Assembly: GCA_013306675.1 (NCBI GenBank)
Contig: JABLUY010000022.1
Span: 62,001 to 126,000 of the forward strand
Length of the DNA stretch: 64,000 nucleotides
From: Thraustochytrium sp. TN22
Lineage: Eukaryota > Sar > Bigyra > Thraustochytrida > Thraustochytriidae
Reading direction: 5' to 3'
Part shown: positions 1 to 8,999 of the stretch, in pieces
Numbering within the stretch: position 1 is the first letter of the stretch
How the letters are laid out: each line of letters starts with the position of its first letter
Notes under the pieces: model-generated
Told to the model about the DNA's origin: nothing
Databases searched by the model: none
Seen by the model: the letters and a program-made list of their open reading frames with translations, nothing else
Made by a program: the position numbers and the translations under genes

Positions 1-627
1 TCATATGGCCCGCTGCCAGCGCAGGATGCGCTTTACTACGCCGCGGAGTTGGCATCAGCGCTGAAGCACCTCCGTAGTGCTGGTGTTCTGCACGGTGACA
101 TCAAGCCCGAGAATGTCGGCCTGTCGGCAGACGGGCACGTGCGCTTGCTGGACTTTAGCCTGGCTCGGGTCCTGCAGGAGAGCAACCCGGTCACGGAGCT
201 CAGCAGCGGCACGCTGCAGTTCGCCTCGCCTGAGGCGCTCTGTCGATACCCAAGCAGCTTTGCCGCCGACTGGTGGGGACTCGGCATTCTACTCTTCAGC
301 ATGCACTTCAGTGAGCGTCCGTTCGAGGCGGAAGACCCAGCAGACACAGACATGACCATGTACAACATTGTGCACGGCCTCATGCTCATCCCAGACAAGC
401 TCGATCCTGACGGACCCCTCGCCAATGCGCTCGGCCGCCTGCTCTGCCCGAACCAGACGCAGCGCATGCAGACCATCGAGGAATGTGCTGCGCACCCCTA
501 CTGGCACGCCGTGGATTGGGACCTCGTGCACGACGAGGCCTGGGTGCCCCAGCAGTTCCATCGCCTCCATTTTCGGCCAAGCCCGCGTGTCGTCAAGGAA
601 TCGCGAAGGAGCTCGTCCAATTTCTGA
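1..627 (+). CDS. Protein kinase C-terminal half (partial, 5' end outside window)
   Basis: The frame is open from base 1, so the gene begins upstream and only the catalytic lobe is visible (about 208 residues). It shows the catalytic loop HGDIKPEN (near base 92), the segment LLDFSLAR at the DFG position, SGTLQFASPEAL at the activation-segment end (SPE for APE), and DWWGLGILLFSM, the helix-F Asp-Trp motif. The sequence HGD is a variant of HRD seen in some kinases. The canonical Gly of DFG is Ser here, which usually weakens metal coordination geometry, so activity is uncertain. The overall pattern is AGC/CAMK-like Ser/Thr kinase, but the specific family is not recognised. A close paralogue lies about 1.1 kb downstream in the same orientation (1724-2674), so this is one half of a tandem pair. 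The tail ends in a basic, Ser-rich stretch before a TGA stop. Confidence 0.8.
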   Translation, partial: SYGPLPAQDALYYAAELASALKHLRSAGVLHGDIKPENVGLSADGHVRLLDFSLARVLQESNPVTELSSGTLQFASPEALCRYPSSFAADWWGLGILLFSMHFSERPFEAEDPADTDMTMYNIVHGLMLIPDKLDPDGPLANALGRLLCPNQTQRMQTIEECAAHPYWHAVDWDLVHDEAWVPQQFHRLHFRPSPRVVKESRRSSSNF

Positions 628-1723: not shown

Positions 1724-2674
1724 ATGCAGCTGCTGCAGCTGCTTCAGGACGGGGGTGCCGCGCAGGTCTACGTCGCGCGGGTCCAAGTCGGATTCGGAGC
1801 GGAGGAGCGCAGGTCCCCGCTGACGATCAATCTGACCACGGGAGCAGCGCGCCGGGGCTTCGCGCTCAAGGTCTTTCGCGCGGACTCGACGCAGGCCGCC
1901 ACCGAGGCGGCAAACGAGAAGACCGCCTTTCTGCGCCTGTGCGCCGCCCAGGTCGCGGGCGAGGAGATACCCTTCGTTGTGCGCTTCCTTGGCGACCTCA
2001 GCGTCAGGCTCGAGAACACGCTCCGGATTTCGCACGCTGTCGAGCTCTGCGAGGGTGGCGACCTCTTTGACTTGCTGAGGAGCGGGCCGATTCCCGAGCG
2101 AGACGCGCGCCTCTACGCGGCCGAGCTTGCGCTCGCCCTTGGGCACATGCGCAGCGCGGCCGTCTAACACGCGCGTGGCCAAAGTCGAGCAGCCGCAGGT
2201 GGCCCGAGCCCGTGAGGCCGACATTTTCCGGCTTTACGTCGCCCTTTCGTGAGCGGCACGTTGCCGTATGCCAGTCCCGAGGCGCTGCAGCGCTTGCCGT
2301 GTGGCTTCGCCCTTGACTGGTGGGGGCTTGGCCATGTGCTCTTTGAGATGCTCTTTGCGCAGCCCGCCTTCTTCGAAGGCTGTGGGGAGAACGCCGACAT
2401 GAACTTTAACTGCATGGATCTCATTGTGAATGGTCTCATTTCGTGGCCAGAGGACATGTTCGTCTCTACACCTGCGCAAGGTGCCGTTTCTGCGTTGCTG
2501 TCGCTGACCGCGGCGGAGAGGCTTCAGTCCGTGCAGGCGTGCGCCGCGCACGCGTTTTGGGCGGAGACCGACTGGGACCTGGTGCGTCGCGAAGCGTGGT
2601 CGCCACGGCACTTCGCCAAGGTGCGCGGCGCCACGCAACTGTCCCGTGGAATCTCGCGTCGCGCCACCTCCTGA
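1724..2674 (+). pseudogene. Second protein kinase paralogue, catalytic segment inverted
   Basis: From the ATG at 1724 the frame encodes a kinase N-lobe: a degenerate glycine-rich loop (LLQDGGAAQVYVAR), the VAIK-type lysine in FALKVF, and ELCEGGDLFDLL at the hinge, followed by AELALALGHMRSAAV, which matches AELASALKHLRSAGV of the first kinase. The frame then stops at 2165. The C-lobe resumes at about 2249 with SGTLPYASPEAL, DWWGLGHVLFEM and DWDLVRREAW, again parallel to the upstream gene. The missing catalytic loop and DFG are present on the opposite strand between the two parts (2166-2243). A linker of about 11 residues before SGTL and the residues Leu-His before GD are absent. As it reads here it cannot make a kinase, so I call it a pseudogene. 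An assembly error or an allele-specific rearrangement is the alternative. An upstream in-frame GTG at 1595 is not favoured as a start. Confidence 0.75.
2166..2243 (-). other. 78-bp microinversion carrying kinase catalytic loop and DFG
   Basis: Read on the minus strand, these 78 bases give 26 uninterrupted codons beginning GDVKPENVGL and ending LLDFGHARV. The matching stretch of the upstream paralogue is GDIKPENVGL to LLDFSLARV. The flanking plus-strand kinase frames stop exactly at its left edge and resume just after its right edge. The inverted block is a whole number of codons and, unlike the upstream gene, has an intact DFG. Confidence 0.85.
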
Positions 2675-4515: not shown

Positions 4516-5071
4516 GGCGAGCGACCTTTCACTGGCAACAGAAGTCTCCCTTTTGCCTATTGTGCAAGTGATGAACGTGCGCAGCGATGCCGTCGGCGAG
4601 CGACCTTTCACTGGCAACAGAAGTCTCCCTTTTGCCTATTGTGCAAGTGATGAACGTGCGCAGCGATGCCGTCGGCGAGCGACCTTTCACTGGCAACAGA
4701 AGTCTCCCTTTTGCCTATTGTGCAAGTGATGAACGTGCGCAGCGATGCCGTCGGCGAGCGACCTTTCACTGGCAACAGAAGTCTCCCTTTTGCCTATTGT
4801 GCAAGTGATGAACGTGCGCAGCGATGCCGTCGGCGAGCGACCTTTCACTGGCAACAGAAGTCTCCCTTTTGCCTATTGTGCAAGTGATGAACGTGCGCAG
4901 CGATGCCGTCGGCGAGCGACCTTTCACTGGCAACAGAAGTCTCCCTTTTGCCTATTGTGCAAGTGATGAACGTGCGCAGCGATGCCGTCGGCGAGCGACC
5001 TTTCACTGGCAACAGAAGTCTCCCTTTTGCCTATTGTGCAAGTGATGAACGTGCGCAGCGATGCCGTCGGC
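4516..5071. repeat. 79-bp tandem repeat, seven identical units
   Basis: Unit boundaries at 4516, 4595, 4674, 4753, 4832, 4911 and 4990 give seven contiguous copies that look identical by eye. Since 79 is not a multiple of three, the array is open in all three plus-strand frames and produces apparent repeated ORFs that I do not regard as genes. A single diverged relative of the unit sits at about 5429-5530, between the truncated and intact hydrolase 3' ends. The array therefore looks like an expansion of one ancestral copy from a tandem duplication. The perfect identity implies recent expansion or ongoing homogenisation. Confidence 0.95.
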
Positions 5072-5118
5072 CTTGTCTTGCACACGAGCACGATGATAAG
5101 GGCGTGCCGTTGTTACAA

Positions 5119-5428
5119 TCAACAGATCGGCGAGGCGCACCCGTGGCAGCACGACGTGGGACGGGGTGTCCGCGGCGAAATGGATCGTGTTGGTGGCAGG
5201 GACGCTGCGCCAGATCCCGTCCGCAACGAGAGCCTCATCCAGGTTTGGGTTGGGACGGTAGTATCTGGCCGAGGAGGACGAGACGGTGACGCGAATACTG
5301 TGGCCAGGGTTGAAGATGTATGCCGTGGGCCATAGGTCCACGTCCACGGCGTACGTGCAATTGAGCTCCATGGGCGCGCTGGGGACGGAGGGACCGTCGC
5401 GCCAGCGCATGCGCGCCGTAGCGGACAA
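5119..5428 (-). pseudogene. Duplicated 3' fragment of the CocE-type hydrolase gene
   Basis: On the minus strand this segment encodes about 100 residues nearly identical to the C-terminus of the intact gene at 5590-7464. Shared blocks are MRWRDGPSVPSAPMELN, DVDLWPTAYIFNPGH and EALVADGIWRSVPATNTI. Differences include Cys for Arg after MELN and Ser for Arg after NPGH. There is no upstream catalytic region, so it is a dead fragment. It is followed downstream (in gene sense) by the 79-bp array, just as the intact gene is followed by one diverged 79-bp-like copy. The duplicated block is therefore gene tail plus 3' flank, with a period near 460 bp. Confidence 0.9.
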
Positions 5429-5530
5429 GCATGGTAGCGAGCGACCTTATGGCAGCAGATGTACATGGAGAAGTCTCGCTTTTGCATTTAGAATGTGAAA
5501 GTGATGAACGTGCTCAGCGATGCCGTCGGT
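5429..5530. repeat. Single diverged copy of the 79-bp unit
   Basis: It shares GCGAGCGACCTT, AGAAGTCTC, CTTTTGC and the stretch AGTGATGAACGTGC then CAGCGATGCCGTCGG with the array at 4516-5071, but carries extra bases and substitutions. It lies directly 3' of the intact hydrolase gene and is probably the ancestral form of the repeat. Confidence 0.8.
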
Positions 5531-5589
5531 CTTGTCTGCAACACGAGCACAATAATGAGCATAAATAAGTGAGCGTTGCGTTGTTGCAA

Positions 5590-7464
5590 TCAAAACGACG
5601 GGTTGTGAGGGAGATCGGCGAGGCGAACCCGTGGCAGCACGACGTGGGACGGGGTGTCCGCGGCGAAGTGGATCGTGTTGGTGGCTGGGACACTGCGCCA
5701 GATCCCGTCCGCAACGAGAGCCTCATCCAGGTTTGAGTTGGGACGGTAGTAGCTGGCCGAGGAGGACGAGACGGTGACGCGAATACGGTGGCCAGGGTTG
5801 AAGATGTACGCCGTGGGCCATAGGTCCACGTCCACGGCGTACGTGCGATTGAGCTCCATGGGCGCGCTGGGGACGGAGGGACCGTCGCGCCAGCGCATGC
5901 GCTGCGCACCGTAGCGGACAAGCATGGAGCGGCGGCCATCGGGATAGAGGTCTGTGAGCGTGACGACAAAGTCCGTGTCCCTGACGGTGCTGGAGACGTA
6001 GAGATGCGCGCGCACGCGGCCAACGATGGCCCAAGGCTCGTCCAGAACGGGACCGGTGAAGACCAGAACGTCTGAGCGGCGCTCGTTGGACGCCTGGTCC
6101 TCGGAACCGCAGCCGTAGCCGCGCATGGCCAGGATGAGATTGTTGCCGCCCAGCGTTGGTACAGGGTGGCGCGGGCGATACGCGTAGCTCGTGCTCGTCG
6201 GGCTGGGGACCGGCGCGGCACGCAGCGCCCCGCCAACGCCCAAGTAGAGGCGTTCGGGCGCGGCGGTCGGCCAGTCGTCGAGCGAGGTCCAAAAGTTGCC
6301 CACGGGCTTGGCAGCCTGGCGGTCGCGCCAGCGCCGCTGCGGGCCCTGGACGAAGAAATTGATGCGCTTGAGCTTGCGGCGGAAGTGGCCTGTGCGGCCC
6401 TCGAAGAGCTCCGCGGCGAAGCCAAAGGCGTTGACCCACACGCGGGCCTCCTGCGGCGTGCTGGCGGAGGCCTCGCGGAAGAGCTCGCAGTGGCCGAGCG
6501 GCCCGACGAAGAGCGTATGATTGCGGCGCACGCGCGGGTCGCTCTGCGTCGCGAGCAGGTCAAAGGCAGCGATCTGGTGGCCACTGAAGATGTCCCACCA
6601 TGCCGTCAAGTGGACCGTGGGCCAGGTCACGCGCTGCGCGTAGGCCTCGGCCTCGACCTTGGCGTACCAGTCGTCGAGCGCCTCGTGCGCCTTGATCTCC
6701 GGCAGCGTGTGCAGCAGCGAGTGCCCACGCGTCGGGACGGCCATGGACGCCATCCAGCCCTCAATAAGGCCCTCGCGGAAGGCGCCGCCGGGAAAGATGG
6801 TCGCATGCGCGTTGGCCGACGCCAGCATGAGCAGCTGCCCTCGTAGCCACGGCGGCTGCGTCACCATTTGGGTAAAGGCGCCGCAGCCGTCCGCGCTGAT
6901 GCCCGCCGTGAACACGCGCCCGTCGCTCCAAGGCTGCTGCGCGATCCACTGCATCGTGTCGTAGCCGTCTTCGCCGTCGTGCATCCACATGCTGAACTCG
7001 CCCTCGCTCGCCCATGTTCCGCGCTGGTCCTGCAGCACCGCCACCATGCCGCCCGCGGCGATGAAGATGTCCGCGATCTGGTCCGACGTCGGCCCGTACG
7101 GCGACCGCGACAGCAGCGCGGCCCTCGGCCCGTGCTCCCCCGGCGCGCGCACCACCACTGTGGCCAGCCTCACACCGTCGCGCATCGGCACCATGTGCCG
7201 CGAGACGACGCGCGCCGTGCCGCCATTCAGACTCCTCGCCGTCGCCGCCACCTCCTCCTCCACGGCCTCCAGCAACCCGTGCCACCTCGTGAACGTCTTG
7301 AGCGACTCCAGCCCCTCGTACGCCTCCTCGCCGCGCGTGAATACGGACCGCTCGGGCGCAAGTCGCTCCGACTCCGCCACACGGGCGACCTCGGTTCCGT
7401 GCGCCGCGTGAACGGCGAGCGAGGCGGTCGCCGCCATCGCCACGAGCACCTGCGCGAGCATCAT
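5590..7464 (-). CDS. Secreted CocE/NonD-type X-Pro dipeptidyl-peptidase-like hydrolase
   Basis: This 624-residue protein starts with a hydrophobic signal peptide (MMLAQVLVAMAATASLAVHA). It is an alpha/beta hydrolase of the CocE/X-Pro dipeptidyl-peptidase S15 family, which cleaves esters or Xaa-Pro peptides. The start PMRDGVRLATVVVRA is the family's opening strand. The nucleophile motif is GISADG with Ser190. Asp291 lies in WWDIFSGHQ and His325 in GPLGHCEL. DQRGTWASEGEF (145-156) is the usual oxyanion-side region, and the C-terminal about 180 residues form the jelly-roll domain typical of the family. Length is normal for CocE (550-650). Two ATGs are adjacent at the start. The signal peptide suggests a secreted or lumenal enzyme; the substrate is unknown. 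Its last about 100 codons are duplicated downstream (5119-5428). Confidence 0.88.
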   Translation of the reverse strand: MMLAQVLVAMAATASLAVHAAHGTEVARVAESERLAPERSVFTRGEEAYEGLESLKTFTRWHGLLEAVEEEVAATARSLNGGTARVVSRHMVPMRDGVRLATVVVRAPGEHGPRAALLSRSPYGPTSDQIADIFIAAGGMVAVLQDQRGTWASEGEFSMWMHDGEDGYDTMQWIAQQPWSDGRVFTAGISADGCGAFTQMVTQPPWLRGQLLMLASANAHATIFPGGAFREGLIEGWMASMAVPTRGHSLLHTLPEIKAHEALDDWYAKVEAEAYAQRVTWPTVHLTAWWDIFSGHQIAAFDLLATQSDPRVRRNHTLFVGPLGHCELFREASASTPQEARVWVNAFGFAAELFEGRTGHFRRKLKRINFFVQGPQRRWRDRQAAKPVGNFWTSLDDWPTAAPERLYLGVGGALRAAPVPSPTSTSYAYRPRHPVPTLGGNNLILAMRGYGCGSEDQASNERRSDVLVFTGPVLDEPWAIVGRVRAHLYVSSTVRDTDFVVTLTDLYPDGRRSMLVRYGAQRMRWRDGPSVPSAPMELNRTYAVDVDLWPTAYIFNPGHRIRVTVSSSSASYYRPNSNLDEALVADGIWRSVPATNTIHFAADTPSHVVLPRVRLADLPHNPSF

Positions 7465-8999
7465 CTTGTCCTGGACTGGCCCGCCGGGCGGGGCGGCTTA
7501 GCCAGAGCGGCGAGCGAGATTGCGGATTGCATTCCAATGGTGGCTGGCAACGCCAGGACCAAGCTTAGAAGTCTTCGCCGGCGCGCAGTTCGTTGTCCTA
7601 CCGCTCCCAGGCCGCCCGCGCACTGTGCCAGCTGCGAGCGACAAAGTCACCCGCGCGCTCTTCGAGCAGAGCGTGCATCACCTCGGGAGACTTTTCCCTC
7701 GAGGCTCGGACGATTCGGAGTCCGCCGGGGCTCGAGCCGCGCGCGGCGTCGGTCGAGGCCTCCGCCCCGCGTCTGGCCCCGTCGTTCGTTGGCTCAAGTC
7801 GCTGGCTTGCCTTGCCGTGCCTTGCCTTGCCGTGCCTTGCAGTGCAGTGCAGTCAGTGCCTGGGCGCGGCGCCGGACCAGGCCGCGGCCGGGCCAGGCCC
7901 CGGCGCCGTTGCGACCTTGCCTCGCGCGCCATCTGACGCAGCCGCCGCCTGCGGTCCGCGGAGCGCCGCCAGGCTGCCAGCGCCGCCGCCGGCGGAGCCC
8001 GGCTCCTGCGGCGGACTGCACTGCATGAGCACAGCCGCAGCGGCGACGCCGCGGAGTTGGCTGGCTGGCCGTGGCGAGCGGTGGTGACTGAGGTTTTTCT
8101 GCCCGTGCTCATCGTCATCAGGCGCTGGCGGAGGACCTCGGATGACGTCAGCCAGGAGGAGAGACTGGGACTCGCTCATGCCCATGTCGGGCTGAGATCA
8201 GAGACCGCACGGCGAGAGCGAGAGCGAGAGCGAGAGCGAGAGATACGACGAGTACTTGAGCACAAGATGAGCATTACGGGGAGCACCTGCAGGGTTTGCT
8301 CGCAAAGCACCAGTTGCGGCTTGCAGAACACTTCTGCAACAAGCGAGCTCTTCGGCACGGGGTTTGCTTCGTTTCGCTCGCCTCTGAGGTCGCCCCGCTG
8401 CCCTTGGTCGGTTTCGCTGCTGTGCATGTGCTCACGGTAAAGCCGCGAGCTCATGCCGACGACTCGATACACCTGATCGTGTGACCTGTCCGGACAACGC
8501 GACCGCGCTCGTGTGGCGTCCCTCTGTCACTGCAGCGGCCCGTCCTCGCGCCCTCTTCTCCAACGTCCTCGCCCGTGCCCACTGTGCTGGCCTCCCGACA
8601 GTGAGCCACGTCCTCCTCGTCCTCCTCGTCCTCCTCGTCCTCCTCGTCCTCCTCGTCCTCCTCGTCCTCCTCGTCCTCCTCGTCCTCCTCGTCCTCCTCG
8701 TCCTCCTCGTCCTCCTCGTCCTCCTCGTCCTCCTCGTCCTCCTCGTCCTCCTCGTCCTCCTCGTCCTCCTCGTCCTCCTCGTCCTCCTCGTCCTCCTCGT
8801 CCTCGTCGTCCTCGTCGTCCTCGTCGTCCTCGTTCTCCTCGTCCTCCTCGTCCTCCTTGTCGTCCTCGCCGTAGTTGGTGGCCGCGGACCTTGGCGCCCG
8901 GAGCAAGGGCCAAAGCGAGAAGGAAAGCGCGGCTGCTGCGGCGGCTGCGGCGGCTGCGGCGGCGGCTGCGGCGGCGGCGGGCGCGGCCGGGCGGGCGGG
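7465..8999. other. Divergent intergenic region between hydrolase and ThrRS
   Basis: About 1.5 kb separates the hydrolase start (minus) from the threonyl-tRNA synthetase ATG (plus). It contains CCTTGCCGTG-type short repeats (7811-7860), a GAGAGC hexamer run (8211-8242) and the large TCCTCCTCG array (8611-8868). The ThrRS frame stays open through the array but that part is not credible protein. Promoters of both genes are presumably here. Confidence 0.55.
8611..8868. repeat. TCCTCCTCG microsatellite
   Basis: About 28 units of a 9-bp motif (TCCTCCTCG, with some TCG/TCC variants at the right end). On the plus strand it would read as Leu-Leu-Val, on the minus strand as Asp-Glu-Glu. It lies 130 bp upstream of the likely ThrRS start codon and probably belongs to the promoter or 5' untranslated region. 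Confidence 0.95.

Follow-up and report, generated by a model that had tools for sequence, protein, structure and literature searches.

Several kinds of event are described in which a short stretch of DNA is exchanged for its own reverse complement. Between human and chimpanzee, 59 definite microinversions of 17-33 nt are reported in PMC8755829, 45 of them exact and all of them between inverted repeats; for these events, the authors propose microhomology-mediated break-induced replication. Template switches of the 1-3-2-4 type put the reverse complement of a shorter, inner portion in place of a larger stretch, and the accompanying deletions lose the information needed for reversal (PMC7954356). 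These events were described from alignments of closely related genomes whose ancestors can be inferred (great apes); the paper also states that 1-3-2-4 is not the commonest type of template switch, an earlier claim having been overturned, which counts against the reading that we prefer below.

Here, we analysed a tandem pair of protein kinase genes at the start of a 64,000-nucleotide stretch of DNA from Thraustochytrium sp. TN22 (the window), which is part of contig C144 in an assembly of 37.9 Mb and 453 contigs. The second kinase gene extends over window positions 1724-2671 on the plus strand and has its N-lobe and C-lobe in one plus-strand frame. The features of the pair are the following, in window coordinates.

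1..627, plus strand: 3' portion of the upstream paralogue, which is intact and has its ATG before the window at C144:61695
1724..2164, plus strand: second kinase, N-terminal part from the ATG to the left breakpoint; 147 codons, with the FALKVF lysine motif, the hinge and helix E
2165..2167, plus strand: in-frame TAA stop at the left junction, carried in by the flipped segment (from sequence and translation)
2166..2243, minus strand: inverted segment running from GDVKPEN of the catalytic loop through DFG to GHARV; the minus strand is open over its 26 codons
2244..2671, plus strand: second kinase, C-terminal part with FVSGT, the SPE motif, DWWGLG and the end of the frame; Pkinase E 1.1e-10

From the ATG at 1724, the plus-strand frame reads through to RSAAV, which brings it to GTC at 2162-2164, and then meets TAA at 2165-2167. 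The N-terminal part is matched on the plus strand by the segment models Nlobe (E 2.2e-9) and hingeDE (E 1.2e-22). From 2237 the plus strand reads RRPFVSGTLPYASPE, and the frame of the N-terminal piece resumes from 2246 with FVSGTLPYASPEAL and stays open until 2671. The minus strand of 2166-2243 translates without any stop as GDVKPENVGLTGSGHLRLLDFGHARV, and the expected motif is found there only. Since the plus-strand frame is broken by the TAA at the junction and its catalytic Asp and DFG are to be read from the other strand, the second kinase has the make-up of a protein kinase pseudogene.

The sequence-only reading had placed the two lobes on the plus strand and the stretch from the catalytic loop to DFG, as 26 open codons, on the minus strand, and both protein profile and DNA matches to paralogues bear this out. 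In a six-frame search of the 64-kb window, a profile made from nine paralogues (upstream kinase included, second copy excluded) matched the segment on the minus strand with an E value of 9.8e-16 (53.4 bits, best domain); the only other match below 0.01 was the upstream kinase, itself among the nine. At the DNA level, the paralogue at C55:177-178 kb matches gene bases 309-434 on the plus strand (75%), 448-520 on the minus strand (84%) and 528-632 on the plus strand (72%), i.e. a reverse-complement match between collinear flanks, as in a microinversion. Similarly, the segment and one flank run in opposite senses against the C55 180-kb, C55 183-kb and C8 copies, while the C55 260-kb, C310 and C440 42-kb copies match the segment alone. 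In total, the inversion is confirmed in the assembly, well beyond chance. The special closeness to the paralogue 2 kb upstream that had been claimed did not hold, as the 19 of 26 residues identical to that copy are equalled by four others. Moreover, the segment does lie on the active site, but the claimed precision of this placement is partly a matter of selection because no other stretch of a kinase is as easily recognised.

The exchange is not a pure, lossless inversion, since approximately two codons at one edge and nine at the other are gone relative to the paralogues. In the upstream paralogue, the interval from AGV to LSSGT comprises 37 codons (111 bases) and in the second kinase 81 bases, giving a net loss of ~30 bases relative to that paralogue. 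At the left edge, the codons for Leu-His before GD are missing (~2 codons), as had been proposed. At the right edge, the proposed loss of about 11 activation-loop residues had to be revised: by manual count in the alignment, ~9 codons are missing compared with the upstream copy and 7-13 across the nine paralogues. The gap falls between the residues resembling ARV that follow DFG and those preceding SGT. We place the breakpoints at ~2164-2170 (left) and ~2243/2244 (right); since neither is fixed to the base, the whole-codon length attributed to the inversion is not established. The 81 bases between 2164 and 2246 keep the N- and C-lobe in frame, which is expected in about one third of random events. 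An alternative reading of the left junction (GTC TAA CAC) with a kept His codon and a mutated Leu codon is not preferred because it requires a TTA codon in a G+C-rich gene.

Short inverted repeats at the breakpoints, for which a search had been proposed, do not rise above chance level. No exact inverted match longer than 4 nt occurs within 25 nt of the junctions; in four comparisons, 85.7-89.9% of 1000 shuffles reach this length, with shuffle means of 4.3 to 4.5 nt. A repeat search, which was also our cover of imperfect repeats as the shuffle tests concern exact matches, found a 7-nt inverted pair (2151-2157 and 2282-2288) enclosing the flipped segment. Because this pair lies partly outside the 25-nt windows, the test was widened to 50 and 100 nt, where 22.4% and 51% of 500 shuffles, respectively, reached 7 nt; of 500 sites drawn at random from the window, 58.8% had such a match at 100 nt. 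Based on the shuffle and random-place tests, the flanking inverted matches therefore do not exceed chance, and flanking inverted repeats of the kind in the human-chimpanzee set are not found; a short repeat could still have been used in the event.

Within the genome, this arrangement occurs once. Among 55 catalytic-loop matches, 54 lie on the same strand as the kinase body and one, in the second kinase, on the opposite strand; some of the comparison bodies contain the loop themselves, and for C112, C257 and C440 (39 and 42 kb) the body match is barely longer than the loop and the agreement comes from other segments on the same strand. A scan with five segment models placed all detected segments on one strand in 17 of the 18 family copies fetched, a subset of the kinases found, and the exception was the second kinase; the 17 include one partial copy (L042 198-422), and stray weak matches (E 0.05 to 3) were disregarded. 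None of the 135 protein-kinase matches listed for the assembly has an internal stop. In the literature, judged by titles, we found no paper about a kinase with an inverted active site.

The upstream kinase matches Pfam Pkinase (E 3.1e-31); in the PDB, ribosomal protein S6 kinase alpha-3 is its best match (E 5.7e-29), and DFG and a DWW motif align between the two. We take the family to be AGC-type protein kinases (S6 kinase/PKC-like), from which the second copy departs in that the wrong strand carries its catalytic loop and DFG. The family has a weak glycine loop and carries HGD at the position in the catalytic loop where canonical kinases have HRD. Its copies form clusters on C55 and C440, a pair on C144 and singles on C8 and other contigs. 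On C55, the 177-kb and 180-kb copies are a tandem pair (89% over 966 bases). The copies at C55:183191-183979 (L046) and C55:260552-261340 (L045) share 97% identity across 789 bases and lie in opposite orientation ~77 kb apart, and the latter, without most of the N-lobe, is an inverted partial duplicate; two sites with Trp in L045 have Arg and Cys in L046. The kinase family is thus expanding and rearranging, and in a family of this kind the loss of one member is unremarkable. Outside the genome, one scan of genome contigs for relatives, with the C-lobe as query, gave a single weak match. On a planctomycete MAG contig (L047 5001-5123), 41 residues are 46% identical to the kinase C-lobe.

As to the origin of the second kinase, we consider it probable that it is a pseudogene produced by one local rearrangement, either a 1-3-2-4 template switch or an equivalent break repair, and the gene was most likely inactivated by the flip together with the edge losses. 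In such an event, ~111 bases (by the length in the upstream paralogue), from before the catalytic HGD into the activation loop, would have been replaced by the reverse complement of the inner part of the replaced stretch, ~78 bases. A polymerase engaged in replication or repair may have jumped to the complementary strand ahead, copied the ~78 bases backwards and rejoined further downstream, giving the switch-point order 1-3-2-4; alternatively, two breaks may have been rejoined with the fragment flipped, which would yield an identical product. We favour this pair of routes without choosing between the two. The fragment lies inside the stretch that it replaces and is shorter than it (~78 versus ~111 bases with the upstream paralogue as reference), as in 1-3-2-4 events; different from the great-ape set, the ancestor is here deduced from paralogues only. 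Compared with the human-chimpanzee microinversions, the segment is longer (~78 nt), has lost sequence at its edges and is flanked by inverted matches of chance length only. We infer from the arrangement that the event would have happened in the cell, probably as a single event, and that the gene would now be dead. Of the possibilities raised from the sequence alone, a natural inactivating inversion is the best-supported reading, while a regulated or allele-specific switch is not supported. A segment copied from a paralogue on the opposite strand was rejected as a source: its identity to the nine aligned copies is 17-19 of 26 residues throughout, which singles out no donor, and at the DNA level the best match is 84% over 73 bases, the 91% match spanning only 32.

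If this origin is correct, a single short rearrangement has killed an enzyme by moving its active site to the other strand, a clean case; moreover, a tandem kinase family would lose members by local events resembling template switches in addition to point decay. The mutation is of a known kind, of which this would be an unusually clean example, and the general picture is unchanged. The second kinase also carries a warning for annotation, in that gene predictors could call two fragments or a false intron here.

The three pieces of the second kinase are otherwise open and conserved. Of the columns that are invariant in nine paralogues, it retains 20 of 22 in the N-terminal piece, 12 of 12 in the flipped segment and 26 of 26 in the C-terminal piece; for columns invariant in seven full-length copies, the numbers are 28/31, 12/12 and 28/29. 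When each of these seven copies was left out in turn as a control, 86-100%, 80-100% and 85-100%, respectively, were kept, and therefore the second kinase is no worse than its kin. The N- and C-terminal pieces are 32-52% identical to the paralogues, and third-position G+C in the three pieces is 85%, 77% and 77% as against 76-89% in ten paralogues measured. The retained invariant columns thus suggest that the gene was constrained until recently, and the event looks young because the pieces would otherwise have decayed. For neutral divergence since inactivation, the lack of a further lesion gives an upper bound of ~12% at the 95% level when only stops are counted, and of ~4.4 to 2.0% when indels are included at an assumed 0.05 to 0.15 per substitution. 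Either the event is young, or there was selection until recently, or the assembly is wrong, and these data do not separate the three.

An assembly or sequencing artefact, in which fold-back or chimeric reads from a very G+C-rich stretch would have yielded a wrong consensus for a gene that is really intact, is the most serious alternative, and we regard it as possible though rather unlikely. The open and conserved state of all three pieces suits it, as the missing decay fits an assembly error equally well and drift beyond ~2-4.4% (indels assumed) or ~12% (stops only) would leave a lesion at the 95% level; the G+C content of the window is 66%. However, a flip with ~30 bases lost over two edges demands more than a mis-joined repeat, and the surrounding inverted matches are no longer than chance. 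Moreover, we found no near-identical copy for cross-assembly: the 12 other DNA matches cover 64-126 bases at 72-84% or, at 91%, 32 bases.

A second alternative, which we hold to be improbable, is that the remaining pieces are in use, either as an N-lobe protein of 147 residues that terminates at the TAA or, through splicing that skips the segment, as a pseudokinase or decoy. The N-lobe frame is open and retains its 20 of 22 invariant columns, but taken by itself the N-lobe of the second kinase has no Pfam match at E 0.001. Among introns of at least 40 bases with a GT in 2080-2165 and an AG up to 2330, two GT-AG pairs keep the frame without a stop, both with GTCTAA as donor; from the sequence as it stands they would excise 40 or 43 codons, the SPE motif among them. 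None of the tested pairs brings an active site onto the plus strand. Skipping of the segment by an intron was rejected on this basis, as only these two stop-free in-frame pairs exist in the tested range and each costs at least 40 codons. In addition, of 12 other copies scanned, 11 match the loop model in one unbroken frame at 27-31 of its 31 positions and one, a partial copy, at 13 of 31; in five further copies, the loop match spans 90-93 bases.

A reversible or allele-specific switch, by which the segment would flip among cells to turn the kinase on and off, is very improbable. On the minus strand, the flipped segment reads as an intact, open frame, and the 7-nt inverted pair encloses it; however, recombination sites and two complete orientations, as in site-specific inversion switches, are not found. 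The lost edge codons are present in neither orientation, and therefore a flip back would not restore the normal active-site region of the family. The switch is disfavoured because of this lost edge sequence and because the inverted matches near the junctions are of chance length, with 4 nt at most in the 25-nt windows and 7 nt in those of 50 and 100 nt; moreover, a single version was found in the assembly, and a DNA search with eight candidates scored revealed no second intact haplotype in it. That both orientations occur in the population, or that the flipped copy controls the intact kinase 2 kb upstream through a regulated product, antisense or truncated, is likewise very improbable.

The kinase pair lies adjacent to a gene for a Ras-family GTPase (Pfam Ras, E 3e-56), which we read as a Rab; together with the many kinase matches, it marks the gene content as eukaryotic. 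An Rfam search of L009 gave no match. At window positions 4516-5071, a 79-base unit is repeated seven times in tandem with 100% matches, and this array adjoins a stretch in which the 3' end of the neighbouring hydrolase gene is partly duplicated. Positions 5014-5439 and 5469-5931 form a direct duplication (86%) that includes the 3' end of a gene for a protein similar to X-Pro dipeptidyl-peptidase (Peptidase_S15/PepX_C; minus strand, frame 5590-7497). Finally, ~29 copies of the 9-base unit CGTCCTCCT occupy positions 8609-8868.
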